Part shown: positions 172 through 59,199 of the stretch, piece by piece
How the letters are laid out: each line of letters begins with the position of its first letter
Numbering within the stretch: position 1 is the first letter of the stretch
DNA from: Sipunculus nudus
Taxonomy: Eukaryota; Annelida; Sipuncula; Golfingiida; Sipunculidae
Direction: 5' to 3'
NCBI GenBank assembly: GCA_026874595.1
Contig: CM049320.1
Coordinates: forward strand, 42,170,714-42,234,713
DNA length: 64,000 bases
Made by a program: the position numbers and the translations under genes
The notes under the pieces: generated by a model
Told to the model about the DNA's origin: nothing
Databases searched by the model: none
What the model saw: only the letters and a program-made list of their open reading frames with translations

Positions 172-690
172 GCCAACACTGGTGGCCCCACTGATGGCAT
201 GATATGGGGGATTTACCATCGAAATGCATTATGGTCATGTGTTGTTAAAACCAGATCTGAAATTGTTTATTAAAGACATATAGAAATTTCTATTTGTCTT
301 ACTTAATCTTTGTTGATTATTCTTTTTTTATTTTTAATTGCAAAAGAAGTATAATAGTAGTTGGTTTAAAAACCGATCTCTGCCAATTGATCACAATGGC
401 AGCCATGTTTTATCTCGCCAAAGGATCAGGAAGCATTAAAATATGGAAAAAACACAAATAATTTCTCTTTGAGGGATTAAATATTTTATCTGAATTCTAC
501 AACACAAAAATTACACCCTGCACATTAACACATCATTAGATATGAACACTGGCGCAGCATAGCTGCCCTTTAAAGGAAATAGTCAAGAAAGATGGAAATA
601 AGAAATAATCATAAACTATATACATTTATATGTAAGGGATCTAATTGGTCAAAAATTTTACATCTGAAATATTATCAATTGGTCATACTG
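172..690. repeat. Dispersed repeat D, copy 1
   Basis: Aligns by eye, in the same orientation, with 32757-33265. Shared blocks include the region around AAATTTCTAT (about 280), GGCAGCCATG (about 399), CAAATAATTTCTCTT (about 455) and AATTGGTCA before exon 13. It ends within a few bases of the USP5 exon 13 donor. Class not recognised. Confidence 0.65.
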
Positions 691-696
691 ACTCAC

Positions 697-754
697 AGTT
701 TTTCTCCCTTTGCTTCAGCTTGTTTCTTCTTTGCTTCATAAGCAGCAACTTCCT
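697..754 (-). CDS. USP5: USP5 exon 13, last exon in view
   Basis: Completes Glu491 and encodes [18 protein letters not shown] (to 509) plus two bases, matching the Lys/Glu-rich helix after AALNKEE in the family. Acceptor TTTTAACAG, donor GTGAGT. The following intron leaves the window; I found no further USP5 exon between 1 and 696. Confidence 0.9.
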
Positions 755-18700: not shown

Positions 18701-21700
18701 TTCTTTTATCTTTAAGATCATGGTCAAAATCACAAATTTTCAGATTTGTTTGAAACAAGTTGTTGTCAGATTATGCTGTGTTAAAAACAGTAGCCTTTAT
18801 GAGGAGGTCCTATCAAACTGGGCATAGGAATGAGGTCCTGTCAAAAAGCAGATCTACTGTCATCTTGTATTTGTGATCTATCACATCCATGCTGCTTGAC
18901 TGTGTTGTTACTTATTTATTATGTAAAGTAAAATCATTCAATGGTCTGTCATTGTCTCAATTTTGAATTATAAAATCTGTTTCTTTTTTATTTACTATAC
19001 ACATAAATGTGACAGGACATGGCTTACTATTATAATGAGATGAAGAGGGCATTTCTTACTTTGAGATGGTCCTCTTCTCCCCATCCCAGGTACCAGCCAT
19101 CGCAGCCAGCTCCTCAGCCTTAGCAGCTGAGTCTGCAGCAATAATGGCTGCTGTAGAGATCTGGATCTGCAGGATAATTAATGAATTGTAATACATGCAG
19201 AATTTCATCAAGAAGATTACCACACTGTTAAACATAGAATATCATTCAAAGAAAAAGGACAATTTCCATTACTGATGTTATATATTTGTTTAAATTGACG
19301 CATAAGTCTATGTAGCATTTCTGCGGGAGAAACTGTCATCTTTTAAATGCCCAGGTGGTATCGTTTCCCAATCCCCCAGTAGATGGTGACACAATGGAAC
19401 TTAAAAAACTGAGACAACTAGAATACGGGTAAATGACAAGTGCCTATGTTTATCTGCCAAAATCAGAGTAGGTCGGGTGAAGTGAGGCATCAATTGAGTG
19501 GCAAGGGGAAATAGAGTGAGATGTGTTACATATTAGCATGGATGTTTGCCACATAAACATAATTGTACCTGCCACAACTTGTTATTCGAAAGATAAACTA
19601 TCCAAGATATATACATATGCCAAATTTCAGGTGGATAAGTCATTCCACTGCTGAGATATGAGTGATTTTATCCCACAGCAGAAAACAGATGAACACTGTG
19701 CAAAAATGGTTGCAGGTGGCACCACCAGTTTCTTGCATTATAAAGAGCTATATGAGATCTGAACACATGCAAAATTTCTGGATGATAAGTCAAACCAGTC
19801 TGAAGATATTAGCATGGTTGTCTGCAGAATGAACATGAATGAAGGTGGCACCATCTGTCATAAAACCAAGAAAGCAATCCAGGATGTTTATGCATGCTAA
19901 ATTTCAGGTGAATAAGTCAAAACTACTGCTGAGACATGATTGATTTCAACCCAAGGCAGACTAAAAGATTCAAGCTGTGCAAAAATGATTGCAGATGGCG
20001 CCACCATTTTCCTGTATGATAAAGAGATATGTGAGATCTAAACAAATGCAAAATTTGAGGAAGATATGTAAAACCAGTCCTGAGATATAAGCATTGATGT
20101 CTGCAACGTGAATGTGAATGCTGGTGGCACCACCTGTCAAAAAATCAAGAAAGCTATCCATGATGTATAAGCATGCCAAATTTCAGGTGAATTAGTCAAA
20201 CCACTGCAGAGATGAGTGATTTTAACCCAAGTCAGATGAACAGATGGACACTGTGCAAAATGGTTGCAGTTTGCACCACCAGTTAATTGTATGATATTAA
20301 ACTACCTAAAAGCTATACTGGTGCAAAATTTTAGCCTGATCGGTCAAACCAGTCCAAAGATATGAGGTTTAATGTGGAAACACAGACCCACAGATGGACA
20401 CACTGCATAGAGGAAACGTCACAGGTCAACGCAAAATGGTTAGGCACAAGTTCAAATGTGACCCAATAATTGGGTAAAGTTTAAGAAAATTGGTCAAATG
20501 GTCTCAGAGGAGTACTCCGGAAATGAATACAGTGACGGTGGCACGGACCCCGTCAAAAACAGTATCCACAAAATTTTTTTTGGTGGATACAATTAATGAG
20601 ACAAGAGATTTAACCAGGGGATGACAATTATATGAGCTATATAATAAAGATTATGGTCATATTATACTTTGGAATAAGATAACAAAATATTTGTAATCCC
20701 AACACAATGATATCATATTTCCAGGTAAACACTTAACTAAAGCTATGTTCAATGGCCTCTCTGTTTCTCTTTCTCTCTGCCAATTTTTCGATTCTAAGAA
20801 AACCCCAGACCTTGCTTCTGTAGTAAATACTGCTCTGATAGCATATAAAACTGTTCCTTTTGTTCTTTCACTTCTTTGAACATGTTTTTGTCACATATTT
20901 TACCTCATGCTCTTACCTCATGTACTTACCACATCAGGCAGTTCAGCATTTGGCAGGGGTATTTCTGTCCAGTCCGGGAGAACAACCACGGAATTATGTT
21001 CCTCTATCTCAAATTTCTTCTCATTAAGATCAAAACCACCTTCTATGCCTGTTGCATCACAGTACAGAAAAAATACAGATTTTACAATTTTAATGGTAAA
21101 ATATTCTATTAAACATTAAACACAAATAAATATGCAAGGCATTTTATCTTCTGAAAGTCAAGTAATCATCTATGTATACTCCTCCGCATGCTGTACATGA
21201 CAAAAACTATTCAGTAATATAAACTGTGCTTTGATACTTAATCCATTCCTTGAAACAGAAAGATAGAAAGGATATCAGACTTAGAAAAAAATAAATTATG
21301 GTAGGTCTGACTTGCCTAACACTGACTTGTTTAACACCATGTGTGTGCATCAAAATACATTCATGCATGTATGAAAATGATAAACAGAAGATTGATACAA
21401 AGCCTTACCTATTGCCAGCTTGGTGGGTTTCTTTTTGGGTGGATCATCTTCTGAAGGAGGGATCTTTGTAAAAGAAGGAAATGTTTGTTAAGGGCATCAT
21501 CTTTTGTAAATCACATAGTACGAATCAAAGAAACCATAACAAACTGACACCTACAAAATAGATCTTATGTGCTTGCAAACATCTAGTTCTAGAAGGGATC
21601 TATTCTGATATCTGATGCATATATAACATGGGCACTGCAAATCAGAGCATCCCTTTGCAAGGGAGCCTAAAAATTATATGTGGTGTAGATGAGGAGGGCA

Positions 21701-24249
21701 GCTCTCTGACCATGACCTTTGACTCTGTGATCTCAAAATCCAGAGGTTTCTTTATCTGTGGATGAGTGAGCCATATGTGCAAGATGAAAGGTTTTGGTCA
21801 AATGGTTTAGCTTAAAATTGATCCGCAAGCTTTTGTCAAGAAGTGGGTCCTGTGGCCTTGACCTATGGCCCCTTGACCTCAATATCGAAAAAGTTCTTCT
21901 CTGTGGGTGGGTAAGCCATAGGCACAAGATTAAAGGTTTTGGTCAAATGGTTTGACTTATGGGACAACAAGCCAAGCCTGGTCAGACAAGACAGACGCAC
22001 GCATGAAAAGAGGCTTTACTTTATCCCCTTGAAGTTCCACGGGATAATAATGATGACCCCTTTGGGAAAGTTATGTCCAAAAGCACCACTCCCACGGTGC
22101 ATAGGCTGTCAGTTTTTCATATCCACATGTTTATGTTGTTCTGTTTGTCAACATTGGCATGTGGACCATGTTTTATAACATCTGATGCACTGATCAGTAG
22201 GGCATTATAAAAACTTTTCTTTGCTGGATATAATAATATAATGTTCTTTAATATATACCAAAAGTAAGCCACAAATCAGGTCAATTCTGCAAATAAGGCA
22301 AGTGAATAGTTGGCTTTAATACTTTATATAAATCTAAGCAAATATAAATTGAAAATTTGTTTTGCCTGAATCTAATACTTTTCAAATTAAGCTATATTCA
22401 ATAACAATTCATGAGGGATGTTCTTGCTAGTTCTTACCTTTTGTTAAATAACATGTATTTTTTTCCTTTTTTTAAGAACACACTACTTAAATGCTGAGTT
22501 ACTGTTTTGCACTGACCTCCCTCTTGATCCTCCTCATGTGCAGGAACACAGCATTCCCAGTCTTCTGGTAGTGCTGCTCCACATACTTCTTGCCAAACCC
22601 CAGGAAGCTGTTCATGCAGATGTATAAACCTGTCTCACATTCCTGCAAGCACAAGCAATCACCACTGTATTCAAATTCATACAAAAGGAGTATCAGCATG
22701 TATTGAAGAGTAATATGATTGCCAAAAGCTCTGAGAGGATTCAATAATGAAACTCTAAAACAAGCACAATCTTCATAAATAGAAAAAATGCAATCTTCAC
22801 ATTTATTTTAATATGTATTGACCCAAAAGATAGAGAAATTACCAACACTACAAATGTGATACATATTACTTTACTTTATGTTGGTAATGCCACCGGAACT
22901 TCCTGTTTACAGCCTGGAGGTGGACCAGCTTGCCAGCCCAGATAGCCCACTCTACTTCAAAGGCTACAGGGATAAAAGATTTGTAATTACAGCTGCCTAG
23001 GCTAGGTAACCTCCTTGACAGGGGTGAAAGCTTTGTACATGTAATTAATCAAAGCCTGAAGGTAATTTCCAGTATTGCACAAGCCTGGAATACCTAAATA
23101 TAACAGATACATTAACTTAAGTTCCATGTACAGATACCATGTACCTCCTACTCAAGAAAGCCAGGTACAAGTACTGGTACTCTGAATTGTGTACCTAGGT
23201 ACAGTTAAAGGTACCTGGCCAAAACCCTGGTTTAAAGTGTTTTTCTGTTCTTGAATTATCATGTTATGAACTGATACCTAATAATGTTTGCTCACTCATT
23301 TCTTTTTCTCATGGTTGCCAAATTATTGGACAAATAGCCACTCTGATAAATCAAAAATAAATTTAATATTTTTGACTGCCAAAATTTCATTATTTTTTTA
23401 AATATTAAAAAATGACTAAACACACAGCACTTTGGAACAATCTTGTAAATTATGCAAACATTTAAAAAGTCTTCAGAATGTATGACTGTAACACTAAATA
23501 ACGTACAAAATCCAATTTGATTTTTCTATCCATTGTTAACTTTTGTATAATATTTGTTCAACTGATTAAACACATAATGTACAGTATGAATACACAAAAC
23601 AGAAACACTTTTTCCAGATGTTATTACTTTCATATTAATAATAAATAATTAAACATTAACATATAAATCATTCTAAATAATATAATCATCATATCTGCAT
23701 TTCAACAATATTGATGGTATTTTCAAAATATACTTGTATTTATTCTTTCCAAACTATTTTAACAAGCAAATTTCAGTGTCATTTTGATGTTCTTCGATAC
23801 TGAATCTTGGCAAATTTGGGGATTTTATTTTGTTCAAGATCACTATCACTGAGTCAGTGAGTCTGATGAATCAATATAGTAGAAAATATTTTGGTAATGC
23901 TGTGTTGATATTTTAAGTTACGTCTACTTTTTAAAGTACCTGTCTGTTAATTTTTCTGTATTAAATTTTCAGCCTTCATCCGTTTTATATTTTAAACATT
24001 ATTTTTTATTAATTTGATAAAAATAAAATTTTGATTTTTGACAGATGATGACCGATCTCTTTTCTGAACCTTATTAGGAAACATTATCTTGGCTCTAAGA
24101 AAGAATCGTGAACACAGATGACCAGAGCCCAAGTACGAATAACTCACAGGGGTGTCGAAGCAGAAACAGCATTCATCCTTGTACACTTTTTCTCCTCCAA
24201 ACGGGGAGCGGATTTTACGCAGATGAGGTTGCAGTTTGCCGGCTGCCAT
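697..24249 (-). CDS. USP5: USP5 (isopeptidase T) deubiquitinase, 5' part, 13 exons
   Basis: Ubiquitin-specific protease that disassembles free (unanchored) ubiquitin chains in cytosol and nucleus. Thirteen exons join in phase to 1,529 coding bases, 509 residues plus two bases, with no stop; the gene runs off the left edge, so the catalytic His box and both UBA domains of this roughly 850-residue family are not in view. Residues 35-76 fit the N-terminal variant UBP domain. The canonical ZnF-UBP has zinc ligands C191, C194, C211 and H224, and ubiquitin-tail contacts W201, R213, Y251, Y253 and D256, each eight below the human number. The Cys box places the nucleophile at C327 (NSCYMN). [12 protein letters not shown] is the QQD box. 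USP13 is the alternative name in vertebrates; an invertebrate gene may be ancestral to both, but the CDCA3 neighbour supports USP5. Start chosen at 24249 because its context (A at -3, G at +4) beats the in-frame ATG at 24255. Confidence 0.96.
1583..1736 (-). CDS. USP5: USP5 exon 12
   Basis: Encodes residues 440-490 plus one base, starting [20 protein letters not shown] and ending [11 protein letters not shown]. Acceptor TTTTCCAG, donor GTACAC. Intron 12 (755-1582) is AT-rich with repeated short AAGAAAWTT-like words and no visible gene. Confidence 0.95.
3002..3300 (+). other. Intronic promoter-like segment with CTCF-like core and short ORF
   Basis: Within USP5 intron 11, on the opposite strand. 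It has an inverted CCAAT (ATTGGCTG, 3002-3009), CCACTAGAGGGC at 3054-3065 (matches the CTCF core consensus), TTTATAAG at 3073-3080, and a 70-codon open frame from ATG 3088 to 3300 that I do not recognise. Base composition is richer in GC than the flanks. It could be an old repeat rather than a gene. Confidence 0.3.
4845..4967 (-). CDS. USP5: USP5 exon 11, QQD box
   Basis: Encodes residues 399-439, starting [20 protein letters not shown] and containing [17 protein letters not shown], a hallmark of USP catalytic domains. Acceptor TATTTCCAG, donor GTAACT, phase 0 on both sides. Intron 11 (1737-4844) is AT-rich; see the promoter-like segment at 3002-3300. Confidence 0.97.
5898..5985 (-). CDS. USP5: USP5 exon 10
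   Basis: Completes Met369 and encodes residues 370-398, beginning [15 protein letters not shown]. Acceptor TGTTTACAG, donor GTATTG, ends phase 0. Intron 10 (4968-5897) is AT-rich, with a short poly-A run near 5737. Confidence 0.95.
6395..6960. mobile_element. Repeat family A, partial copy
   Basis: Starts like the 19445 copy (TCTGCTGAAATCAGAGTGGG) and contains about two units of the family. Blocks are GGTGGCGCCACC, CATGCAAAATTTTAGGCAGA, GATATGAGTGATTT and CAAAAATGGTTGCAGGTGG. Right terminus missing. Confidence 0.75.
7133..7325. mobile_element. Repeat family A, 5' fragment
   Basis: Begins AATATGGGTAGTCGACAAG with TTTGTATCCGCAGAAATC (terminal repeat) and stops after the first GGTGGCGCC block. 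It runs into a separate short repeat, GGGACCCATGGGTCACGG (7329-7346), which recurs at 15780. Confidence 0.7.
7676..8245. repeat. Direct duplication of about 250-300 bases
   Basis: 7676-7980 and 7993-8245 are near-identical head-to-tail copies running from TTTTCCATTAATAG to GATTATTCCTTGAAT. The first copy carries an extra internal 51-base duplication (AAGTTTTATAAAT..AAAATATTA twice). A diverged relative is visible near 16690-16940. Confidence 0.9.
8640..9515. repeat. Mollusc-type dispersed repeat
   Basis: The part 8880-9515 shares blocks with 17160-17290: AAATCAACAGTGCTTGC against AAATCAATAGTACTTAC, and TATAGTCAGCTGAGCTAAAA at both right ends. A G tract lies at 8657. No coding sequence seen. 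Confidence 0.5.
9520..10395. mobile_element. Repeat family A, copy cut by the 330-bp array
   Basis: Nearly three tandem sub-units carrying GGTGGCGCCACC or close variants at about 9612, 9739, 9910, 10042 and 10190. It ends in the family's 3' part (CAGTTCACATGTGACCTGAT) at about 10395, where the array-bearing repeat begins. Confidence 0.75.
10435..12385. repeat. 330-bp tandem array with higher-order dimer
   Basis: Five unit landmarks carry (A)ACAGGTGGCGCCACCTG or close variants, at about 10724, 11061, 11383, 11718 and 12044. Spacings alternate 337, 322, 335 and 326, so the true repeat is a dimer of about 659. Long units contain CAGGTTATAAATGTACTGTTAAG where short ones have CAGTACTGATAAA. Each unit carries TCAAGGTCAAGG. 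The array is flanked by CATAGTATCGCCAGAC at 10459 and CATAGTATCTCCAGAC at 12353, then a hairpin. A (CGG)n run lies at 12317-12333. Confidence 0.9.
12363..12387. other. Hairpin at the right edge of the array
   Basis: CCAGAC-TAT-GTCTGG lies within TATCTCCAGAC and GTCTGGCGATA, an 11-base stem with one mismatch. The stem sequence also stands at the left edge of the array. Confidence 0.7.
12425..12470. repeat. Double TCTAGACA palindrome
   Basis: 12425-12443 and 12452-12470 are each imperfect palindromes (TCTAGACA..TGTCTAGA). They are also inverted copies of one another with one mismatch, giving two alternative hairpins. Confidence 0.8.
12780..13250. repeat. Unclassified dispersed repeat
   Basis: Begins with GTAGGTGGCGCCACCAAT and ends with a GACGACGCACGCAGAC block before the next family A copy. 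The inner text (GATAGTTCTAGCCGTTTCTG) recurs in altered form at 13158-13185. No open frame supported. Confidence 0.45.
13250..13830. mobile_element. Repeat family A, 3' copy with terminal repeat
   Basis: Contains the family blocks and the right terminus TTTTGGCGGATACAAATA (13807-13824), the reverse complement of the left terminus seen at 7166 and 19445. It lies just outside USP5 exon 9. Confidence 0.8.
13900..13971 (-). CDS. USP5: USP5 exon 9 (72 bases)
   Basis: Found by phase matching: one base of Arg345, then [23 protein letters not shown], and two bases of Met369. It fits the family segment between the Cys box and the AKLGHGLLSG block. Acceptor TTTTTCAG; the donor is GTGAAT. Intron 9 (5986-13899) is the longest and is almost entirely repeats. 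Confidence 0.93.
14704..14897 (-). CDS. USP5: USP5 exon 8, Cys box
   Basis: Encodes residues 281-344 plus two bases, including [19 protein letters not shown] with the nucleophile C327. Acceptor CTGCTTCAG, donor GTTTGT. The split Arg codon (AG/A) is completed by exon 9, which fixes the donor exactly. Intron 8 (13972-14703) shows nothing else. Confidence 0.97.
15298..15392 (-). CDS. USP5: USP5 exon 7
   Basis: Encodes the rest of Asp249 to residue 280: [20 protein letters not shown] and onward. Y251, Y253 and D256 correspond to human Y259, Y261 and D264 of the ubiquitin-tail pocket. Acceptor CATTGTAG, donor GTAATT. Intron 7 (14898-15297) is short and unremarkable. Confidence 0.96.
17018..17040. 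repeat. Poly-G tract
   Basis: Fifteen G, one T, seven G. Likely G-quadruplex forming; inside USP5 intron 6. Confidence 0.95.
17300..17830. repeat. Diverged tandem repeats of about 160 bases
   Basis: Repeating order of a TTTGACCTT-like block, AGGTCA(A)AG, CACCAGTTTTCAAA and AAATTTCATG; at least three units. A related stretch lies at 18420-18740. Both are in USP5 introns; no coding sequence. Confidence 0.65.
18054..18289 (-). CDS. USP5: USP5 exon 6, ZnF-UBP core
   Basis: Largest exon seen. It gives the last base of codon 170, residues 171-248 and one base of Asp249. It holds zinc ligands C191 and C194 (CERC), C211 (CGRR) and H224 (NNHAV), and contacts W201 and R213. Acceptor TTGACAG, donor GTGAGC. 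Intron 6 (15393-18053) contains AT-rich sequence, a long G tract at 17018-17040 and diverged tandem repeats at 17300-17830. Confidence 0.97.
19060..19166 (-). CDS. USP5: USP5 exon 5
   Basis: Encodes residues 135-169 plus two bases, an Ala-rich helix linker leading to TWDGEERTIS. The acceptor is ambiguous: CCTGCAG (used here) or the AG six bases further in, which would drop two residues (Ile-Gln) and keep frame. Donor GTAAGA. Intron 5 (18290-19059) has short direct repeats but no other gene. Confidence 0.9.
19445..20594. mobile_element. Repeat family A, most complete copy (about 1.15 kb)
   Basis: Left end TATGTTTATCTGCCAAAA (19445-19462) is inverted relative to the right end TTTGGTGGATACAATTA (about 20577). 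Other copies give the cleaner consensus pair TATTTGTATCCGCCAAAA and TTTTGGCGGATACAAATA. The interior holds about three sub-units of roughly 300 bases with GGTGGCRCCACC, ATGCAAAATTTC and GATATGAGTGATTT. No open frame, so non-autonomous. Superfamily not identified. Confidence 0.75.
20930..21048 (-). CDS. USP5: USP5 exon 4
   Basis: Encodes Gly95 (second and third bases) to residue 134, starting [17 protein letters not shown] and including VVLPDW. Acceptor GCAACAG, donor GTAAGT, ends phase 0. Intron 4 (19167-20929) is largely one copy of the 1.15 kb repeat family described at 19445-20594. Confidence 0.95.
21409..21463 (-). CDS. USP5: USP5 exon 3 (small)
   Basis: A 55-base exon for residues 77-94 plus one base: [18 protein letters not shown]. 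It matches the basic linker of the family, which ends KKPTRLAIG in human. Acceptor TTTACAAAG, donor GTAAGG. The split Gly codon is completed by exon 4. Intron 3 (21049-21408) shows nothing notable. Confidence 0.93.
21660..21960. repeat. TGACC-rich tandem repeat, two units
   Basis: Two units of about 165 bases, each with a TGACCNNTGACC-like block, GTGRGTGAGCCATA, GCACAAGAT and AAAGGTTTTGGTCAAATGG. Relatives lie at 38620-39090. Inside USP5 intron 2. Confidence 0.75.
22250..22330. repeat. Short repeat shared with CDCA3 intron
   Basis: AGTAAGCCACAAATCA..GTGAATAGTTGGCTTTAA resembles AGTAAGCCAGAAATCA..GTGAATAGCTGGCTTTAA at 36150-36210. Class unknown. Confidence 0.5.
22517..22642 (-). CDS. USP5: USP5 exon 2
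   Basis: Encodes residues 35-76, starting [20 protein letters not shown], the best conserved block of the N-terminal variant UBP domain. Acceptor CTTGCAG, donor GTCAGT, both phase 0. Intron 2 (21464-22516) carries two TGACC-rich repeat units at 21660-21960. Confidence 0.95.
23118..23229 (-). mobile_element. hAT-type element, single-end fragment
   Basis: On the minus strand it reads CAGGGTTTTGGCCAGGTACC and continues with the same GTACCTAGGTACAC and TGAGTAGGAGGTAC blocks as the left end of the 30100-30792 element. Only one end is present. Confidence 0.75.
24148..24249 (-). CDS. USP5: USP5 exon 1 (start exon)
   Basis: Encodes residues 1-34, ending CCFCFDTP, phase 0, followed by donor GTGAGT. 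Another in-frame ATG lies two codons upstream at 24255-24253. The first intron (22643-24147) is AT-rich and holds only a fragment of a hAT-type element near 23118-23229. Confidence 0.9.
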
Positions 24250-24336
24250 GATCATAAGAGGCGGAAGTAGAAACTAAGTATTTACGGTAGTGACGGAACC
24301 TGCTGTCTCATGCAGTTCTTACGGCAGTTAGATTAT

Positions 24337-24423
24337 CCAATAAGATCCATTCTACAAAACAGATGGTGGCTTCGAGATGCATCCTGAAATATGATTGGTC
24401 GAGGCGCGAAATTTAACTTTGAA
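24337..24423. promoter_or_regulatory. Probable USP5/CDCA3 bidirectional promoter
   Basis: CCAAT box at 24337-24341, inverted CCAAT (ATTGG) at 24394-24398, E2F-type GGCGCGAAA at 24403-24411 and CHR-type TTTGAA at 24418-24423, all 90-175 bases upstream of the USP5 start. NF-Y, E2F/CDE and CHR elements in this order are the known signature of G2/M gene promoters. Here they read toward CDCA3, not USP5. That it drives both genes is inference. Confidence 0.55.
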
Positions 24424-24429
24424 AACAAC

Positions 24430-24483
24430 TCGGTGGGTCAAAGGGACACGAGAAAGAAAAGTGAAGAGACCACGAAGTAACTT
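24430..24483 (+). other. Candidate non-coding first exon of CDCA3
   Basis: Directly downstream of the CHR-type site on the plus strand, ending at a GTAAGA donor (24484). It would splice to the acceptor at 32122. A rival candidate ends at 31277. No transcript evidence can be seen from DNA. Confidence 0.25.
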
Positions 24484-24838
24484 GTAAGAAGACTACTGGT
24501 GGGTTTCATCATAATGTACATGTTCATTTTATCACCACTACGATGAGATACAGATCTGTTGTCAATGCAATATTTGGGAAACATTGTATTTTTATGCATA
24601 ACGGGATAGCAGTCCTAATTGAGCATGCAACAAAACAAATTTTGTCGCAGTGCCAGTGGGAATGTGGGATTTCGTAAAAATTTGGGTTCACCAATTAAGT
24701 GTTTATAATGCATTGAACCCACATATCTCGGGGGAAAAGCATTATACGGGAATGAACTTCATGGGGCTAAAACACCTAATGAACCCATATTTTCGGTTTT
24801 TAAAAATGGAGGTTGAATGCCCTTTAGTACTATAGTCC

Positions 24839-27800
24839 GGGTGTGACTATTTTAGTATTTACCGTCCGGGACCCACTGAATACCGTCTGGAACATAGCTG
24901 TACTGCCCGGGTCACTAAGACACCGTCCCAGACACCATAATAAGCTTAAAAGTATTACTTAAATGCATACAGGCCTTCTGGGGCCGACCAGGCCTCCAGT
25001 ATGCCGTCCGGGTCAACGAAATATACTACATTTCAAAACACTCAAAGATCATGTGATTATATTCCACAGCTAGTGATTATTATATTTTAATATGAATATT
25101 TTAGTTTAACTCCATGTTAATTATTATTATTATTCTTAATCTATTATTAATATTATTATTATTATTCATGCATTCTGAATATACTTCTTCCGCCCAGAAT
25201 ACCGTATGGGCGGTTCGACTTTTTACCGAAACCGACCTCTTTTACCGGAACTGACTTTAAAATATATTAAATTGCATTTAGTTACATTTTCTATTTCCAT
25301 ATTCTCAGACAGTGTGAAACATATTGTAATACAGTAACAACACAACATAATAAACACGATAAAATACAAGGTTTTGTGAAATGATCATAACATAAAAGTA
25401 CCTCATTTTCCATTTATGTTCACTTGTAAATATTTGTTCAGTTTAATAACATAATTCAATTTTTATGTAAAGAGGACAATTTCATGTAATTTTCAATTTA
25501 ATTTACATTTGGACAAGTAAAATTTCCTCAGTAAAATTATAATATTTTCAGCATCTTTTCCAAAACAATTTTGAATATTCTGAACAAAAGCAGAATGACA
25601 GAATTTTAGAATGAAAGAAACAATTCTGATTAGTCCATCATACTCTGATTTTTTCTCTCATTTTTGTTCTCATTGAGCAACTGCAGGGTGTGATGAACTG
25701 ATTAGGGGTGCTAATGACTGGCTGGCTGCCCTCACCCCTAAGCTTGTCACTCTAAGCTGTTGAGGCAGCTCTATACAAGGAAATCCCCACTATACTGTGC
25801 AAAACTTTGAGTGGATCATTTAATTTAATATTTGAGAAAGCAGTTTATTTTGACATTTTGACTTAATTATCATAAATTTGATAAAATACATAAGCAGCTG
25901 AAAGTCATCATCCAGCGTTGTCAATTTATGAAGAAACGTGTAGAAAGTTGCAAAGTATACATTAATAAGTTTATCTAATATGTTCTGCCATTTTAACATC
26001 ATGTCCTAAATATTGCCAAAAAACAATGGGCGCCCCTTGGTGGGACAAATTTTATCGACTGGGAGGGCCTAAATATATAGCAGCATCCCCACAGGACTAA
26101 TTTTTAGTATTTGTAGATTCCTGATGGCCCAGGTATGAAAATTAATGCAAAAAAAAGATGTTAAAAAGAAAACTTCTCCTTTGCGTTCATATAATTATTT
26201 CTGAATTCATATTTCAAATATGGTACATGTACAACACTAAGAGATAAATAAATCTAACAATCCAAGGTGATAAGGACAGAAATGTTCAAGGCATTCCATG
26301 CATTTGTCATGAATAAATAAGCTGTTTGAATGAATTCTTACTCAAACTGATCATGATTGACTGTATAGTGGAATTTCACATTTGTTTTTCAAATGATACA
26401 AGTTGTAATCATAAAACCCATTAACTTGATGCTTAACATCGATAGGTCCAGATGAAATAGATTTTAAAACAGGAGTCATGAGCTGTTGGTCACTGTCTTT
26501 GTAATAATCTGGATACTGTATAACTGCAAATATTGTAGTTGGTGTAGGCTATGTATCTGTTTCCATGGATATCTCCAGAGGGGAGAGAGCACAAGAGCTA
26601 GGGGTAGATACTGTAGATCAGTAAATTGTCATGGTCCATATCTTAAGTTTACTTGCCATATGAGGTATTTGTTGTTGACAAAGACATGTAATTTATAATA
26701 ACATAATACATGGATTTATAGAATATAAGTCCTGAATTATTATGAAAGTGTTCGGCTTTTGCTTTTTTTAATTATTTTGATACTGGAATATCCATGCTGA
26801 CTGATCTGCTGTTTTGCAATTTCACTATAAGAAACAATTGGGGTGAAGTAAAGTAAGATGATATGTGTGTTCTTCAAGTCAGTTCCAGTACCATTTTAAG
26901 CAGATCCATGTAAGATATTGGTAGTCACACTTGGTTGAAACTCATCAAGTTATGTGATTATAAAATATGTTTTAAAATAACTTAAACAAGTGCTTTATTT
27001 TCTTTTGAGTTCTGATAAAATGCAGTCAGTTTTGGTCAGTTCCAGTAATATGAACTCAGTTTCGGTCAGTTCCGATAGGTTCTGGTCAGTTCCTGTAAAA
27101 GTCAAGCCCCTGTATGGGGCAACAAAACCCAGCCCCGAAAAGGCTCGAGATCAACCATGTGCAATAGCCAAATTGAATATACTATGTAATATTTACACTC
27201 AAAAGATATTACGATTATATTTTTAATAAGAATTAAATTGTTTGGTAGGCCTATACTGCCATGGTAATGATCATGATATAATTATTATAATTAGTAATCA
27301 TGTATTCAGAATGTTATTATACCTGCCAATAAACCGTCCGGGGCAATAGAACTAGCCCTGAAAAATTCTCACCTAGTCAAGGACGACAGTCGGGGGGAAA
27401 ACTGACCCTTTGATCATCAACCGCCTGTCACTGATTGCTCCATCGAAACCATGCACGTCTGTCGTTGTGACATAATTAATTAGCCAAGTGGTGTGATTAG
27501 TAGTTGTTATACAATGCGTTGAACCATTACCATCTTCCCGGTTTGACGGCTGTGGTCTATGGTGCTGTCACAGATACATGCCGTGTGCTTATCCGTACGT
27601 TTTGTTGTAATTATATAGCGTCATAAATTATATTTGCAATACATAATGCTTTCAACAATACACATATCAATAAAGGCCTAATCTGGACAGTAAAATCATG
27701 TACTTGACATCAATAAGTGTCTGTATGCATTTAAGTAAAACTTTTTTTATCTAGTTCTGGTGTCCAGGTACAGCTCGGTCCCGGACGATATTCAGGGTGT

Positions 27801-27843
27801 CCCGGATGTTTACAGACGTCCCGGACGGTAAATGGTCACACCG
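24839..27843. mobile_element. Mutator-like (MULE) non-autonomous element, 3.0 kb
   Basis: Ends GGGTGTGAC and GTCACACCG are inverted. The similarity extends inward through TTTACCGTCCGGGAC, CTGAATAYCGTC and AGCTGTAC for about 80 bases, with looser inverted blocks (GACTTTT.ACMGGAACTGAC) further in. Exact 9-bp target duplications CTATAGTCC flank it (24830-24838 and 27844-27852). Long TIRs with 9-bp duplications are typical of Mutator-like elements. No transposase frame is visible. Confidence 0.8.
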
Positions 27844-27844
27844 C

Positions 27845-28433
27845 TATAGTCCATCCCAATACCCGTGTCCGCATGTTTTTTTGCGATAATTATTTTAAGG
27901 AGATTCTTTAAAAATGGTCTGGCCTGAAGTAGATAAACAGGTATTCCACCGATTTTGTGTAAAGTAGTTATATATCATTTAAAACGTATTTACTTTGCAA
28001 CTCTTTGGCGTTATTTATGGTGAAATACCGTGGATGGCACCTTGCCGGCACTGCTGGACCGTACATTCCTCTATTGTACACTTTCCATGTCTAAGGCTGC
28101 GTTTGGCATTTGTTAGACAACAGTGACATCACAAAGACGTCACAGTGATTGGTCGGGCGTCACCTTCAATTAACTGATGTCAGAAGTTTGACTGGCTTGT
28201 TTATTATCAGTTTTCAGGCAAGGAATAAGTCGTAAACGCTGTAACCTGTTTTGTCATATTTTGAATTACTTGTATCATACAAATTCTCAAAGCAAGGTAA
28301 GGCATTACTTTTTATGCAGGTAGTCGGCGGAATAGCTCCTACAACCTTTGAACAAGAAAGATTTACACTGCTTTCCTTGTATGAAACATAATCCCAGAAA
28401 AACATGTGGACACAGGTACTGGAACGGACTATA
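27845..28433. mobile_element. TIR MITE, 0.59 kb
   Basis: Ends TATAGTCCATCCCAATACCC and, inverted, TATAGTCCGTTCCAGTACCT; both continue into GTGTCCRCATGTTTTT, about 36 bases of TIR. A second copy starts at 63487. Its left tip overlaps the MULE target duplication, so the MULE inserted into this terminus. No open frame. Superfamily uncertain (Tc1/mariner-like if the TA at the tips is the target site). Confidence 0.8.
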
Positions 28434-28464
28434 CAAAGTACAATATTAGGCTTCTCTTATACCT

Positions 28465-29826
28465 CAGGGTTGGCAATTTCTTCCAAGAGGCGGTTCCTTC
28501 CATGGAAACTTCCGGCTCGGAAGAATTAGTTTCCTCCATTTCTTCCAGAAGAAATTTTCAAATTTCATGTGAGAATATATAAAACTAATAAATTTTTAGC
28601 TTTATTTCTGCCATAAACATAATCTGTTCCATCTTATTTGCAAATATGAAGGTTTATATTAATGTATAGTGTTATCTTAGAATGTATCATTCTTTGTTTA
28701 ATTCAGTTGGACAATATGCCTCCTGTAGTTTTGAGTTAGTTTAGGTGTCATAATTCAAAATCAATGGACACAGGTTTCTGTCCGGTGAACCATGCAATGA
28801 TAAACAGGTGATTACCTACAAAAGTGTAGTCTAGTTATTCCTGACTGCACAGAGAGGCAGGGTATGGGGAAGCCATGTCATAATTAACAGGTTTTCATCT
28901 ACTATACTAATCAAACGGTCAAACTGCTCCTTGTTTTAACAGATTATTACCCAGCAGATACACATGCACAGAGATAGGGTTACCTATCTCCAGCAGGCAT
29001 ACAGAACATGGTTTCTTTGGCACAAATATATAAGATAAGGGAGCATATGTTCCATGCAGTAGGCCTATACTGTGTACCTACTATTCAGACAACACATACA
29101 ATAACAGATACAAAATGTTTTGAGGAGGATGCCCAAAAGATGCGGTTTGGGAACTCTTTGTAAGAGTAGAAGTAGGTGGCAAATAAGCAAGCTATCAATT
29201 TTTGTTATATTTTGTAAGAAATGCACTTGGCATACTATTTAGATTCTACATTAGTGAGTTGGTATGTAGCACTGCATGCACCTTGGCAGCTATGCATTTG
29301 ACTCTTAAGATATAGATGGGAATATGTAGTATATCAATCAGTAATTCTTTGTCATACAAAAGTAACTTTGCTGAGTGAAACAAATTAAGTAAGAACTAGT
29401 TAGTAAGTTACAGTAAACTTCCTCTAACCTTCATGTGAATACAGGTAGACATTTAAACATGAATCTTTTGTTAATTAACATGTTAACACATACTGTGCAA
29501 CACTACATATTTAAATAGTTGAAATACACATCCATCATGCAGCTGCAATTTTGGCAATACTATATGAATAAAACTAACAGAATCATATTTAGAATAATTG
29601 GAGCTTTATTCCTGTACACTGAATAAAAGTCATATTGTTTTATTTTATTCAGAAGAAAGAAAAATAGTTCAAATATCTGTTTTTATTTCCACGTATCACT
29701 CTTACTGTCCACAAAATTCCACTTTCATCCATTACTTCCGGAAGTAAGTGGAGAAAACCCCATTTCCTCCAATTTCTTCCAATGTCTCGGAAGAAATACA
29801 TTTCTTCTGGAAGAAAACCAACCCAG
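28465..29826. mobile_element. hAT-type non-autonomous element, 1.36 kb
   Basis: Left end CAGGGTTGGCAATTTCTTCC, right end GGAAGAAAACCAACCCAG, with exact 8-bp target duplications TTATACCT at 28457-28464 and 29827-29834. Both ends carry several TTTCTTCC / GGAAGAAA words. No transposase seen. Confidence 0.92.
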
Positions 29827-30099
29827 TTATACCTTACTATAAATAATATATTAATTATTTGTCAGTTGCTTGGTTATACTTTTGCGGGATTGTGCATTTG
29901 GCAGGTTTTTGTTAAAGACCTATTTTACATTTTTTTGACACATTATTTCCAAATTTTGATTATTCTAAAATAAGGAGAAATGTTAACTAGTATAAGAATA
30001 AGGCTTACAGTGTTTGCTAACCAATATATGTTAGATATAATGAGCAAAAAATGCTCAAATATAGCTTGTTTTCTTGGCAATGTCTAGCCCGCCACGTAC

Positions 30100-30792
30100 C
30101 AGGGTTGGGGCCAGGTACTTGTACCTGTACCTAGGTACACATTTCAGAGTACCTGTACCTGCACCTACCGGTCATGAGTAGGAAGTACCTTGTACCTGTA
30201 CCTGAAACTATAGTACCTGTACCGGGAACAAGGTACTCCAGATACATTTTCATATTTTCAGTTTTTTAAGTTTTTTTCTCTTTTAGTTTTAAATTTTTAT
30301 ACCTTTAGTGTAAAATAATCAGCAAGCTATCAGTGTGATAAACTGCTCATGAACTGAATTGTTATCACACCTCCAGAATGGTCACATGTGTGAAATCAGC
30401 TGTAACCACTTATTAAGCAAATCATTCGATTATACTGTATTTGGTGCTGTTAATGAACTTTTAAGTACACAAATATCATGTTTGTGAATGTATGGTGTCA
30501 TACTCTACTTGGTGCACTTTATGGACTTTTAATACACTTGCAATTTGCATATCATGTTTGTGAATGTATGGTGCCATACAGATAATAAGTTCTAACAAAA
30601 TATACCTGAGCAAATGACTTCAATATTGTTTGATAGAAAAAAGGCATGTTAACTTGCATATACATGAATTTATGCCGTTATTATTAACCGTAAAATGTCT
30701 TTGAAGTAATCCTAAAATAAATGTACCTGTACCTGGCCAATTCACAAGTACCTGTACCTAGGTACTTTCACTTGTACCTGGCCCCAACCCTG
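30100..30792. mobile_element. hAT-type non-autonomous element, 0.69 kb
   Basis: Left end CAGGGTTGGGGCCAGGTACT, right end GTACCTGGCCCCAACCCTG, with exact 8-bp target duplications CCACGTAC at 30092-30099 and 30793-30800. Both subterminal zones are packed with GTACCTGTACC words. Confidence 0.95.
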
Positions 30793-31209
30793 CCACGTAC
30801 AGACTCCATTTATGTGATATGGAGTCCGACCATCTGGCGGTGAGAGTTCACCCTGCGGTACATGGAGGGACCTTTAACATGAAATACCACTGCTTGTTGT
30901 GTGATAGAGAAGCAAACTTGTATTTATATATAAAAATAAACTTAATATGTTTCAGATTAAATCGATATCACCTTAATGTGCACCTGTAAATGTTTTTTAT
31001 CCTTTGAACTGTCGGGGTTCAGTTGTTGCATGCGCAACAGAACAATGCCCGAAAAGGAATCCCATGCAAATTAGGTGGGCTTTACATGCAAATGAGGAAT
31101 TCAGGGGGGCTTTTCCAAGGAATGCCAGTGCCGTGCACTGGGATAGACCATATTTTCATAAGCATCCTTCCCATCATACATTTCTTGTTGTCAGTGATGC
31201 TAATTTCCT

Positions 31210-31277
31210 ATTGGCTGTTCCAACTTGAAGGCTTCAGCAGCCTGACGGAGACAAAGTAATATCTGACTTCATTCAGA
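31210..31277 (+). promoter_or_regulatory. Alternative CDCA3 promoter and leader exon candidate
   Basis: Inverted CCAAT box ATTGGCTG (31210-31217) followed by a GC-richer stretch ending at a strong donor, CAGA/GTAAGT (31277/31278). It is 0.85 kb from the CDCA3 acceptor at 32122, a typical first-intron length. Competes with 24430-24483. Confidence 0.3.
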
Positions 31278-32122
31278 GTAAGTGCCCATACTTGAATATA
31301 AACTGATCATTCAACAAAAGTTTCAGTCCCAACGGGGTCCAAGCATCTGTAACAATAATAATATGTGGGGATGGACTAGTGTCCTCTTGTTACACTAGGC
31401 ATATACATGTCTTAGGGTTCCAAGGATCCGTACAACCTTGGATAGTATAGACTCTCCCCGCCAGAGGCTGCAGCGCTTGATCATTGTTTACTAATATATG
31501 TCAGTGCAGCAAGACTCCAGCAAGGCAATGTCATGCATTACATTATGGCGGACAATGAATATATGAGCCAATGAATTCAACTTTAGAGGCATTTTGTCTC
31601 TCAAACAACACCACCTTTCATTATATGACCCTTATTTTTCTAAAAAAAATTATTCATCTCTTGTATATAACAAAATATTACCTTAGATTATAATTTGCAT
31701 TAAAGATTGTAAGAAATAATCCTCTAAAAAAACGCTAAAATTCACAATTTCCCCTTGCTATAAATAATATATTGATATTTTGTCAGTTGCTTAGTTATTC
31801 AGTGTCATTTCTTTACTTATTTTTCTTGGTATGACATATACTTGAGGTCATTGACCAGTATACCAAATGTGGGTTCTTTATTAACAGACATTAATCAGTT
31901 AAAATACCAAGTTGAGATCAGGCAGACCCACTCTGCAATGAAAGAATAGGAGCATAAATAACAAACCAACTTACTGGGGGGGGGGGGAATTTACATTTTA
32001 AATATATTTGATAGGCCCTTGACAAAGTATGTGTATGAACACGCACATTGATTTTAAGCTTAAAGCTGCCCCGCACTAATTATCCTGCATTGCGTAGTAA
32101 CTTGATTTTTATTCCTCTGCAG

Positions 32123-32399
32123 AATCACCAGGACCTTGTGAATTGTACTGTACATGTTGTCACCATGGGAGCACTACAGACCAAGGAGTTCACCGAGATG
32201 TTAGAGGAGGAGTGTGCTGCCACACCTGAACCCAAACTCCGTTCCCTCTCAGCGCAGTTCGACCCTCGCTCACCCACAGCAGACATCACACGCACACCTA
32301 TCATGGTGGAGAAAACCCCCGACAATATACTAGACCCCAGGTCACCTTCAAATACCATCACAAGGACACCAATATACTCTTACATGGAGCAAAAGCAAG
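32123..32399 (+). CDS. CDCA3: CDCA3 coding exon 1 with 5' leader
   Basis: Acceptor CTCTGCAG at 32122, then 42 untranslated bases, ATG at 32165, residues 1-78 plus one base of Gly79, donor GTGAAA. Intron 1 (32400-33706) contains dispersed repeat D copy 2 and AT-rich sequence. Confidence 0.92.
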
Positions 32400-35300
32400 G
32401 TGAAATTTTTCTTCATTTAGACATTTAAACCTTCCATATAAACTGATGAAAATTCTCCCATTAGGCCAAAAAATTTTAGAAAATGTTTCTCAGGCACATA
32501 TTTCAGAAAGTGATGCTGGCGGATAGCTTTTATTTATTTAATTTTTCCACCATGAAAATATCTTAAAATATCATTATTTCTCATGCATGGGCAATAGAAA
32601 TGACAACCAATGGTTAACATGAGATTATAAACGATGTATACAATTACATGGAATTAGTCAAAAGGATCCTTGAAATATGTGACATTTCTTTTGCATGGAA
32701 TATTAACATGCAAACCAGATTATGTAGGACTATGGGTGTCAAAATCTTTGCCGTCAACCCAGAATACATGGGCGCCGCCAATGGTCATGACATTGGGATT
32801 CCCCCATTGAAATGCATGATTGTCATGCATTGTTAAAGCAAGATCCAAGATTGTTAAATAAAGAGATGCATTTGAAATTTCTATAAGTCTTATATTATCT
32901 TAATTGATATTTCTTATTTAAATTTTAATTCCAAATAAATAAATTGGAAGTTTGGCAGCCATCTTTATTCTCATCGAATGGTCACGAAGCATGAGAATAT
33001 TAAAAATATGCAAATAATTTCTCTTATACATTTGAATTCTATCACACATAAATTAGACCAATTCCAAGTGTTTATTTAAAGGTTAGTATAGTTTATTTTT
33101 ACAGAAACAAGCATGTTATCACTTCATTAGCTATGAACAGTACTGGCACGTAGGGACCAATACAGAAAATAGTTCACAAAGACAGAATTATTAGATATAT
33201 TAATCATAGTACCAGTAAACAATGTTAAAGTCCAACTGGTCAAAAGTTTTACAGGAATTATCAATGTATTGAAGTATATTCAAGGATAAAAATGGTTCAT
33301 TTATCACTAGGAGAGAAACTGGCAGATGCTGCAGTCACAGATTTTTTTATTAGCAACCAAGCATGTTACTAGATTACCACATGACATTTGGACAACTAAA
33401 AGGTTTGACATGGGGGGTTGGTTAAAGTGACGCCAGCAGTTCCTGATTTGCAGATTTACACAACATGGTGTAACTTGCATCTTGGAAAACAAGGAAAAAA
33501 TTTTGAATTTACATTTTTTTTTTCCCCAGACACTGAATTTTAGGAAGGTTCCTGAAATGAGGGAAGAGTCAGATACTGGTACTTTGTTGCCAAAAAAAAA
33601 GAGAAAATGATCAGTCTGATTTATTTTATCATATGCCCCAACAGCATATCTGATTGAAGATCTGTGGTTGTTTTTTTGTGTGATTTTAATTCTGTATATA
33701 TTTTAGGAAAGAAGGATGCACAGTCAGACACAGCACTGCAGAAGGCAGTGAGTGAGGACAGTCTTATTCACCCAGCAGACTCCTCACTATCAGATTCCCT
33801 CATGGGGCTAGCTCCTCTTGACCTTGATGCAGCGACTGACCTTGAAACCAAACTCATCACAGAAGTGAAACCAAATCCAGCGCCTGTCCCTGGTATGTCA
33901 CCTTTTTAATATTGTACTGCCATCTCGAGACGCAATAGATCAGCGTTCAGCTTGAAAGTGACACACCCTGTCCTGCTTGCGGTTAGATCAGACTGGAAGA
34001 TTAATCCCATCTTAACGCTCAAGTCTCAGCCCCACTAACTGGTAGACTTACAGATCATTAAATGTAGCATGCTTTATCTTTTGGCAGCAATATCATATGT
34101 TTGTCCCTCAACAAAATATCAAATACTCTTCATAATTGTGCATGAAATACACCACCACTCAGCTTACAAATTTTACTGGTGTGCTGTTCATGTACAATTC
34201 TGGGGATAATTAGAAATTTAGTTGAAGGACAAGCATGACATTACTTCCGAAAGAAAATGCATGCTACATTTTATGAAACTAGAGTAAAATTTACTGTTAG
34301 TCAGGCTGTGATTAGAGCCATTAGCTTAGACAAGCCTACTGGCCTGACCTTACATCCCGTAGAACATTTTCTCACTTTCCTGCTTGACACTTGATGGGCT
34401 TGGCATGAGAGTGGACTTAATTATATAACCTCGAGAGTTTTCAAAGGTCCTTTAAAACCAGAAAGACATGGAACATAGGATTCAAAGCACTGAAATCTTT
34501 GAGGTTTTGATGTTTACTGCAGGGCCTTTACACCAATTACACTCAAAGAATGGTAATCAAACAAATTAGATTTGGGTTATCACAGTTTTAAAACAGGAGC
34601 TGGATGCTCAGTGTGATACCTTTCTCTCAATGGTCCACTTGGCCTTGTATCAGTGCCTAATGGTGAATTCAGGCAAGTCCTGCTTAACAAAGGAGTGACC
34701 AAAGCAAAGTATCTGTAGAAAAATAGAAAGCTGTCTTCTAAGCAATGCAGGTCACTATACTGGGATGCACCCAAAATTGTGTAAACTTGCATTAACTAAT
34801 TCAGCCCCTGTTCCCAGGTTCATTGAACTGTACCTCCATGGATTTAACTTTATGATGTTCCTGAATCCAGATCATGTGCTGGATCCACCAAAAGTTAATC
34901 AATTCTTTATTGGCAAATTCTGGAAATGCCTTGAAAATTTTGTCAGATTATATTGTTAACAAACATACAAACAGGGATGGACACATACCCTCATGGCAGA
35001 GGCAATTAATTGATATCTGCATGAAGGTTAAACAGATGGTACAGTTCATAGATAATTAGAATGGACATATGTAAACTCACAAACAAGGGTGAATGCATAC
35101 CCTCCTGACAGAGACAATGACTGCAGTGTATAACTTCATAAGGAGTGTTCAGGTCCTTCTTCAAAGTTTAACTGGCCTTCAGTACCATCATGTCATGCTG
35201 CCATCCTAGTAATAAATTTTATTATTGAATGGGGTCCAAAAGATTAATGGATTATAAGCAATTTTTTTTTTTCAGTTACTGGTAGTCTGTCATTTGGTCA

Positions 35301-37224
35301 AGCTCAAAAGTTCAAATATGCAGTTTGGGTCATAGAAAATTTTAGTAAGATCCTAAAACCTCTACACTTCTGTAAATATCCTAGATAAAGTGTGGCCTGG
35401 AGGTGCAGAATTCCTGAATATGACCTATTGTTTGTTCCATCCCCTCATGTCCATTGGTCTACTGTTTGCTAGGAAATTTTATATTACCAGTAGTTACATT
35501 TTGAGGGCGAAAATGGAAACAATTTTCAACAAAGTAAAACTACACTCGTAGTAGTATTGATTGTATTCATAAATCATATTTGATGATTGAAAGATAAAAA
35601 GATTACCAACAGTCAATTAGGAAGTGTTCACACCATGTTTGGTCCAGACAAGTTCTTTGAAGTTAGTTTCCTCGTTCACGCCTTGTTCATAAGGTTGTGT
35701 TCTCTTCACAACGTCTACAGGACACTTGTCATGGACAAGTTATGTATGACAGCCTCTAAAACTGGCCATAAGATGTCGCCAACTGTCGAGCCATTTCACA
35801 GAAACTTATTCAAAACTTTCAATTCCCTCCAATATAAACAAAAAAGACCAACCCTGCTATTTTTTTATTTATTAAATTTCTCCTATCGCCCACATGCTAT
35901 AAATATTATATGCACCCTCAAATATTTTGTTTCCTGAAATTTTCTGCTGTCCTGCAATATTTAATGCCTGTTCACTGTTGATGCCAAACAATGGGCTGAC
36001 CTTAACTGGACCCTGAAACAGGTCACTCTAATCTTTATTTATCTGCATAGTGCATGTACCTTGTTAACTTACATCCAATACATCCATCACAGAACCCTCT
36101 TAAGAACTTTTCTTGACATAAATTACATGCATTTCATTAATATGTGCGCAGAGTAAGCCAGAAATCATATAAATTCTACTGATAGGCTAGGTGAATAGCT
36201 GGCTTTAAGCTGAGCAAGGCCTTGAGAAGTGACTGTCCAAAAAGCCATTGACCAATATCAGATGAGCAGACAGTCTGTGATGTCAGTGTGAACTTTTTTA
36301 GGATGATAGGATTGTATTAAGTAAAATCGTATAGTCAATATAAGCCACTGTCCTAAGTGTTTTGAATGGTGAATGTTGTTTGGTTTGAAATATAGTTGAT
36401 AGGTGTCAGCACATCTTTGATATTGTGTTTTGAGTTGTCTCCTTTGCCTTTCCTGATATCTTATTCCTGGTTGTTGTCCATACAAAACTAATACATTGAT
36501 ATAAAAATGAACCAGATATATTGCCTCTGGTGCTAGTTCCTTATTGAATTTTTCAATCACAAAGTATTAAGTAACTTGTCAGTACACAGTTGTTTATACT
36601 TTTTTTAAACTTATTAAACAGTTTTGTTTTCAATGACCTCCTAATCATCTTTTAATTCATCAGCTTCTTGCTTTTGACATGGCAGTTTACGTAACTAACT
36701 TTTCAGAATACACTGCAGATGTAACATTTTAAATTTTCAGATAAATTTTGCATTTTCTACACATTAAAACATGTCTTTATTTAAAATACATTTACTCAGT
36801 AACATTTGAAGATATGTTTGTGAAATTTTCAGCATTAACTGACAGACAAATGAATAAATATGTTATCCAGTAATGGAAGATGCCCTTGTTATTTTATTCA
36901 GCAGTTGGACCTCCAAGTGTGAAGAAAGGAAAAGACAAAGAAAAGACAGTGGTGAAAAAGGTCAAGGTCAAAGAAGCACAGAAGTCACAGCCCAAGGTCA
37001 GAGATAATACTCCAAGGTCACCGCTCAAGATCATGGGAGGAGTTCAGCATTCTCCTCGTGGACTGTGTCATGTTGATTCCAACTCTCCACGGTCTATCGT
37101 GCAGCGTAAACAAGCCAGTCGCCTTGGAATGGTCCAGAAAAGTCCCAGTCGGAAACAGTTAAACCTTAGCTCCACAAAATATAGCCAACTCATGGCACAG
37201 GACAAGGAAAACATGCACTGCTGA
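32165..37224 (+). CDS. CDCA3: CDCA3 (trigger of mitotic entry, Tome-1), 3 coding exons
   Basis: Cell-division-cycle-associated protein 3; in vertebrates it acts with SKP1/SCF to promote WEE1 destruction and is itself removed by APC/C-Cdh1. Exons 32165-32399, 33707-33892 and 36902-37224 join in phase to 247 residues (human about 268). Hallmarks: two copies of the family repeat, DPRSPTADITRTPI (residues 33-46) and DPRSPSNTITRTPI (57-70); an acidic Ser-rich middle (LDLDAATDLE); a third SP-rich block NTPRSPLKIMGG; and a KEN box three residues before the C-terminus (DKENMHC). Start ATG has an ideal CACCATGG context. MGALQTK also fits the N-myristoylation pattern, as does the human N-terminus, which is inference only. 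Confidence 0.93.
32757..33265. repeat. Dispersed repeat D, copy 2
   Basis: Same-strand relative of 172-690 (see there), inside CDCA3 intron 1. Similarity runs from a GGTGGCC/GGGCGCC block to AACTGGTCAAAAGTTTTACA. Class not recognised. Confidence 0.65.
33707..33892 (+). CDS. CDCA3: CDCA3 coding exon 2
   Basis: Completes Gly79 and encodes KKDAQSDTALQKAVSEDSLI through VPNPAP-like text to residue 140 plus one base. Acceptor ATATTTTAG, donor GTATGT. Acidic and serine-rich, as in the human middle region. Intron 2 (33893-36901) is AT-rich with no secure feature apart from the short repeat near 36150. Confidence 0.9.
36902..37224 (+). CDS. CDCA3: CDCA3 terminal coding exon
   Basis: Encodes residues 141-247 and stop TGA at 37222-37224. 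Very basic start (KKGKDKEKTVVKKVKVKEA), then NTPRSPLK, SPRG and SPSRKQLNL, and the C-terminal KEN box. The acceptor is a CAGCAG tandem (36899-36904): using the second AG removes one residue and keeps frame. Confidence 0.93.
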
Positions 37225-59061: not shown

Positions 59062-59199
59062 TTTGAGAGTTATGTATAAAGTCGTGACCTGTGCCATGGT
59101 GTTGAGCCATCCTTTTCTGCGAATTCGTATCCGTCCTGATATAGGCCTAGGTTGAGGAAGCATTATGTTCCAAGGAGGATTATACTGGTAATAACAAAC

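Follow-up and report, generated by a model that had tools for sequence, protein, structure and literature searches.

The divergent USP5-CDCA3 gene pair of Sipunculus nudus and the position of its probable shared promoter

The stretch of DNA analysed here, called the window throughout, spans 64,000 nucleotides of the Sipunculus nudus genome (contig CM049320.1; C15:42170714-42234713 in our numbering), and was compared with the whole assembly of 1.43 Gb in 153 contigs. It hosts two genes on opposite strands with facing 5' ends, USP5, for an enzyme of ubiquitin recycling, reading leftward and CDCA3, a gene of mitosis, reading rightward, whose start codons are 7910 bp apart. The two form a divergent pair, with no recognised gene between them. 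It is fairly likely that the pair descends from the bilaterian ancestor, and that a compact promoter working in both directions, located around 24250-24500 and close to the USP5 start codon, serves both genes. The great age of the pair, supported by two points of the animal tree, the Sipunculus genome and the vertebrates, is likely. What is new is that the sequence shows where a shared promoter probably lies. The 7.9 kb gap looks like being mostly a 5' untranslated region (5'UTR) intron lying behind this promoter, and the spacing that matters is probably that between the putative start sites, about 0.1-0.2 kb, rather than the 7910 bp between the ATGs.

The putative start region between the two genes

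A cluster of promoter elements lies next to USP5. The plus-strand sequence 24394-24423, ATTGGTCGAGGCGCGAAATTTAACTTTGAA, is made of a CCAAT box, an E2F site and a cell cycle genes homology region (CHR) in succession. The CCAAT box (24394..24398) is on the minus strand, reads ATTGG on the plus strand, and resides within a match to the NF-Y motif RRCCAATSR. The E2F site GGCGCGAAA (24403..24411, plus strand; reverse complement TTTCGCGCC) fits exactly the consensus TTT(c/g)GCGC(c/g) quoted in a passage of PMC8629999. The canonical CHR, TTTGAA (24418..24423, plus strand), is found 6 nt past the E2F site, and begins 163 bp from the USP5 ATG. Another CCAAT box is located at 24337..24341 on the plus strand, and an ETS-type site, ACTTCCGC, recognised by consensus match only, sits directly upstream of the USP5 ATG on the minus strand (24261..24268). 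A peak of CpG density covers 24101-24600 and reaches the 97th-98th percentile among the 400-base windows of the window, and this peak was free of repeat cover in the comparison made.

The arrangement is rare. In a span of 144 kb, which also served for the splice-site percentiles and the motif expectations given below, 266 TTYGAA hexamers were counted on both strands, and a single one, the CHR at 24418, carries an E2F core in the 29 upstream bases. Expectations were simulated under two models, one of the window and one CpG-rich, each for 24 Mb. For the CCAAT/E2F/CHR triple the expectation per 500 bp is 1.25e-4 under the window model and 3.1e-4 under the CpG-rich one, or per 144 kb 0.036 and 0.09, figures derived from 6 and 15 simulated triples in all. 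When the window was shuffled, the E2F-CHR string reappeared in one of 100 shuffles, and the ATTGG-E2F-CHR string in none of 100.

The first coding exon of CDCA3 (32123..32399, plus strand), which carries the start codon at 32165 in the context CACCATGG, is preceded by a strong acceptor. The AG at 32123 is at the 99.7th percentile of the 7919 plus-strand AG sites of the span; a score as high is reached by 0.27% of them, about one per 7 kb. In a comparison of 19 acceptors (32123, 16 from USP5 and the two others of CDCA3), it exceeds 17 of the other 18, and these 17 range from the 81st to the 99.6th percentile. Because this acceptor is strong, the exon that opens the coding sequence is probably an internal one, with a further, non-coding exon to be expected upstream. 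Such an exon may correspond to 24425..24498 on the plus strand, its start being uncertain. Candidate donors are found at 24433, 24484 and 24499 (98.4th, 93.1st and 99.6th percentiles), and use of the last one would leave a 5'UTR intron of about 7.6 kb (24499..32122, plus strand) in which no gene was recognised.

The first-pass annotation had placed no gene between USP5 and CDCA3, and the searches agree with it: the gap contains 79 open reading frames (ORFs) of 40 aa or more, and in the 10 of them that were scanned no Pfam family scored over the cut-off (best E=0.091), and the window contains no Rfam family at the gathering score and no tRNA detectable by ARAGORN. About 14% of the gap recurs in the other sequence compared.

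Several observations weigh against a shared promoter at this place. The splice-site position weight matrix is a generic one, written down by ourselves rather than trained on the species, and a USP5 acceptor at -6908 (99.9th percentile), the only one to do so, scores above 32123. Nineteen motifs were tried in the promoter scan, though CHR, E2F and CCAAT are those expected of a mitotic gene; nothing was used of NRF1, YY1, DRE, CRE, GC box and the other motifs of the same scan. For the E2F+CHR pair, when the CCAAT box is left aside, the simulated expectation per 144 kb is 0.41 to 1.17; the pair alone may therefore be due to chance, while the triple at this place is unlikely to be. The spacer between E2F site and CHR is 6 nt, and not the 4 nt which separate the cell cycle-dependent element (CDE) from the CHR in MKI67, according to PMC8629999, so the cluster lacks CDE spacing. 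Genome-wide, the strict pattern GGCGCGAAA-N(2,12)-TTTGAA occurs 5 times, versus 11 times for the reversed control, and no gene was recognised in the 3-kb loci of the other four matches. The strict pattern is thus rare, yet is no general signature in this genome, and its use as a genome-wide mark of mitotic genes was rejected. Finally, a second CpG-rich stretch is found at 27.2-28.3 kb.

Some of these data would fit a different scenario, in which two separate promoters are at work, the start of CDCA3 falls at some point within the 7.6 kb, for example near 32.1 kb or at 27.2-28.3 kb, and the cluster either serves USP5 or is fortuitous. The 7910 bp between the ATGs, the second CpG-rich stretch (a repeat having been seen only at 27845-28434), the lack of enrichment of the strict E2F-CHR pattern over the reversed control, and the presence of other donor-like sites above the 96th percentile at 24841, 25688, 26133 and 26267 speak for this arrangement. 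However, directly before 32123 the observed/expected CpG ratio is 0.1-0.35 in 400-base windows, unlike a promoter; the strength of the 32123 acceptor suggests an internal coding exon; and the triple is expected about 1-3e-4 times within 500 bp. The stretch at 27.2-28.3 kb is a less likely CDCA3 promoter because its 27845-28434 part recurs as a repeat. Two separate promoters are, on the whole, unlikely, and a shared promoter beside USP5 is preferred.

As a separate observation, the E2F-CHR string occurs elsewhere in two mirror-image copies, at C14:50387978 and C14:50396597, 8.6 kb apart, and next to each copy is a long tandem repeat, in which a frame reads LKGSSTAQLSRPPLQPI.

Conserved linkage and a possible mechanism

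The neighbourhood of the two genes is found in vertebrates as well. A passage of PMC4470515 lists LEPREL2, GNB3, CDCA3 and USP5 among the genes of the CD4 locus conserved between mammals and fish, and one of PMC12077880 gives the order GNB3, CDCA3, TPI1 in apes, and names USP5 among the omitted neighbouring loci; gene orientation is given in neither passage. The conserved bilaterian linkage proposed in the first-pass annotation is partly supported, at two points, Sipunculus and the vertebrates. As to orientation, CDCA3 and USP5 are presumably divergent in human, with a start-to-start distance of less than 1 kb. The human GNB3-CDCA3-USP5-TPI1 cluster at 12p13 and the Sipunculus locus are alike in that CDCA3 and USP5 are neighbours and, presumably in human as well, divergent. 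They differ because in Sipunculus a 5'UTR intron of 7.6 kb probably separates the promoter from the coding part of CDCA3, and because TPI is 36 Mb away. Split TPI exons are found at C15:6.01-6.13 Mb, on the same chromosome as USP5 and CDCA3. The TPI neighbour has been lost, while the USP5-CDCA3 pair survived. The host-like TPI exons (C15:6014875-6126698, 8 matches) resemble two copies about 100 kb apart.

Linkage might have been retained passively, the ancestral neighbours having never been separated, with no shared element under selection. The pair is close for a genome of 1.43 Gb, in which few breakpoints would land between the two genes, and TPI remains on their chromosome. On the other hand, TPI has been separated from the pair by 36 Mb, the motif cluster is located between the starts, and no other host gene was recognised by eye over about 31 kb on the far side of USP5 and 67 kb past CDCA3. 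This survey took in ORFs from 85 aa upward in the flanks and from 55 aa upward inside the window, and a gene with short exons could escape it. We regard passive retention as improbable. The first-pass annotation had also suggested a constraint on splitting the promoter. Three findings favour this part of its claim: the CCAAT/E2F/CHR cluster so near to USP5, the strength of the acceptor at 32123, and the fact that TPI is no longer a neighbour.

An old divergent pair would be an entity of an already known kind, since in chordates 372 putatively ancestral bidirectional promoters have been described, the majority of which were lost in vertebrates (PMC6292497). According to the same source, these are divergent pairs kept for long and enriched in housekeeping functions; the present pair, likewise divergent and probably old, differs in that it is found outside vertebrates. 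Our literature search on a shared or bidirectional USP5-CDCA3 promoter found no report among the papers listed, and in the main text of PMC3815023, dealing with human divergent pairs, neither gene is named.

Shared control in the sense of co-expression, the other half of the first-pass suggestion, found no support. The elements of the cluster are those of a G2/M promoter, and CDCA3 is listed in PMC4705690 (Table 1) among 210 candidate human genes which are DREAM-bound, repressed by p53 and endowed with a conserved variant of the CHR no more than 1 kb from the start; in the main text of the same paper USP5 is nowhere mentioned. Many genes rely, according to that source, on the CHR alone, and the CDE is not required. 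Shared DNA with different outputs is likelier than co-expression.

A more specific scenario, which is possible and is advanced tentatively, is that the bilaterian ancestor had the two genes back to back on a single DREAM/MuvB-type CCAAT-E2F-CHR promoter, and that this promoter, not co-expression, kept the pair together for more than half a billion years. In that case a single nucleosome-free stretch would have a steady output toward the left and one gated to G2/M toward the right. For the Sipunculus locus itself, the preferred reading is that both genes most likely depend on one short open region, whose openness would be maintained by NF-Y bound to the CCAAT boxes. CDCA3 transcription would begin directly past the CHR, giving a short non-coding exon spliced from a donor near 24499 to 32123, whereas USP5 would start on the opposite strand, no more than about 100 bp from its ATG, plausibly by means of the ETS-type site. 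In G0/G1 the CDCA3 side may be repressed by DREAM (E2F4/5 and LIN54) on the E2F and CHR sites, and in G2/M activated by MuvB with B-MYB/FOXM1, USP5 output remaining constant. The CDCA3 protein may then be cleared through its KEN box by the anaphase-promoting complex/cyclosome (APC/C) with Cdh1. Overlap of the two start regions in one small stretch would keep the genes together. Beyond the motifs themselves these steps are extrapolated from the sequence, and the genes would be tied by shared DNA, not by timing.

One half of a CXC repeat scores over the cut-off in the genome; we take it to be of the LIN54 type, and a component required by the DREAM mechanism would thus exist in Sipunculus. In human, removal of CDCA3 by APC/C-Cdh1 through the KEN box is reported in PMC9926468 and PMC8163776. 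A further term of comparison is offered by the CHR and CDE/CHR promoters of G2/M genes. MKI67 is described in PMC8629999 as silenced by DREAM and then raised in G2/M by MuvB/B-MYB/FOXM1, its CCAAT boxes setting level and not timing. The Sipunculus cluster shares with such promoters the TTTGAA, an upstream E2F-type site and CCAAT boxes, but differs from MKI67, whose CDE is at 4 nt, in having a full E2F consensus, a 6-nt spacer and a divergent partner 163 bp away.

The correction of an easy misreading is of some general value, as 7.9 kb between start codons can conceal a promoter of about 200 bp. The CHR/E2F/CCAAT grammar of cell-cycle promoters is known chiefly from mammals and flies. A single-copy pair with a start region alignable from an invertebrate to human would date this grammar, and would also allow testing whether overlapping promoters preserve gene order.

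Identity of the two genes

The sequence identifies the left gene as a deubiquitinase of the USP5/USP13 type, in which zinc fingers, the Cys and His boxes of the UCH domain and two UBA domains are all present. Its 5' part occupies 1..24255 on the minus strand, the gene continues to the left of the window, and its stop is found just past position -8680, off the left window end. Coding exon 1 (24148..24255, ATG at 24255 or 24249, donor after 24148) encodes the beginning of the variant UBP zinc finger, since the PF17807 match is divided between exon 1 (2.8e-07) and exon 2 (2.5e-15). PF02148 and PF00443 match over the cut-off the ORFs 18040-18402 and 14685-14912, respectively. Further coding exons lie, on the same strand, at 22642-22517, 21048-20930, 19166-19059, 18289-about 18054, 15392-15298, 14897-about 14703, 5985-5898, 4967-4845 and 1736-about 1584. 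One more small exon, whose limits were not drawn, was spotted near 21430 after the peptides had been joined; a simple motif search did not turn up the exon expected between 14.7 and 6.0 kb (window 5986-14702).

A query of 751 aa, assembled by hand from seventeen exon peptides and lacking at least two expected exons, matches human USP5 (PDB 3ihp) at E=4.8e-287. The alignment runs in three stretches, residues 32-98, 120-372 and 391-852 of 854, and includes the Cys and His boxes (GNSCYMNS, GHYVCH) and both UBA regions; the UBA entries 2dag and 2dak were matched as well. The gene name and the leftward orientation proposed in the first-pass annotation are right. Genome-wide, PF17807 has two matches, which are these same two exons at one locus, so the genome holds a single USP5/USP13 gene. 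Vertebrates carry both USP5 and USP13, and the single gene by itself would suggest a host outside the vertebrates. An inverted repeat pair of 124 nt, 80% complementary, has one arm in USP5 intron 1 (23108-23231) and the other in the gap (30098-30221).

The right gene is, on sequence grounds, an orthologue of CDCA3 (TOME-1). The exon with the start codon is followed by coding exons at 33707..33892 and 36905..37224 (plus strand), the latter having its acceptor at 36905 or 36902 and ending with DKENMHC and the stop, which includes a KEN box. The three exons join in phase, and make an intact frame of 246 aa, or of 247 aa with the acceptor at 36902. Both the rightward orientation and the ATG at exactly 32165, as first annotated, are confirmed by this frame and by the similarity to human CDCA3. 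Searched against the genome, the protein gives three matches at E up to 10, all of them its own exons, and the gene is single-copy; no better reciprocal match came up elsewhere in the genome at this limit.

The human CDCA3 sequence used for comparison was checked against published residues. It fits 15 of those given in PMC9926468 and PMC8163776: Ser193, Arg198, Arg220, Ser222, Glu226, Ser229, Glu230, Leu231, Gly234, Lys244, Gln254, Lys258, Glu259, Gln261 and Glu267. A mismatch concerns the discussion of PMC8163776, which gives Glu256 and Glu231, whereas His256 and Leu231 stand in the sequence used here; PMC9926468 places Leu231 and Glu226 in human CDCA3, in conflict with the Glu231 of the other paper. 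Blastp against this human sequence yielded 42% identity over 67 aa (E=1e-9), spanning two tandem DPRSP-I-RTPI repeats. The local alignment score is 135, while 2000 shuffles peak at 96. The two repeats occur in the same order in both proteins, and both have a KEN box near the C terminus. In the Sipunculus protein a candidate destruction box (RxxL), RSPL, is encoded by exon 3 upstream of the C-terminal KEN box, and both are predicted degrons. Pfam gave no match for CDCA3, in scans of an early version with a misjoined third exon and of the two main ORFs alone; the sole PDB match (E=0.66) was taken as chance. That the gene encodes a different protein with proline-directed phosphosite repeats, as the missing Pfam match and the weak alignment to human outside the motifs might suggest, is very improbable in the face of the blastp match, the shuffle scores, the repeats and KEN box common to both proteins, and the lack of a better match elsewhere in the genome.

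Other elements of the window and of the assembly

Two ORFs of the window, 59151-59804 and 40393-40620, look by eye like pieces of transposon genes, the former of a DDE transposase and the latter of a reverse transcriptase. Outside the window, small contigs carry eleven TIM genes that are intronless and full-length, each with an open frame of 261 aa, and that have near-equal scores (C61, C62, C66-C69, C72, C75, C89, which has two, and C90). The assembly seems to hold several near-identical genomes of a bacterial cobiont or symbiont.

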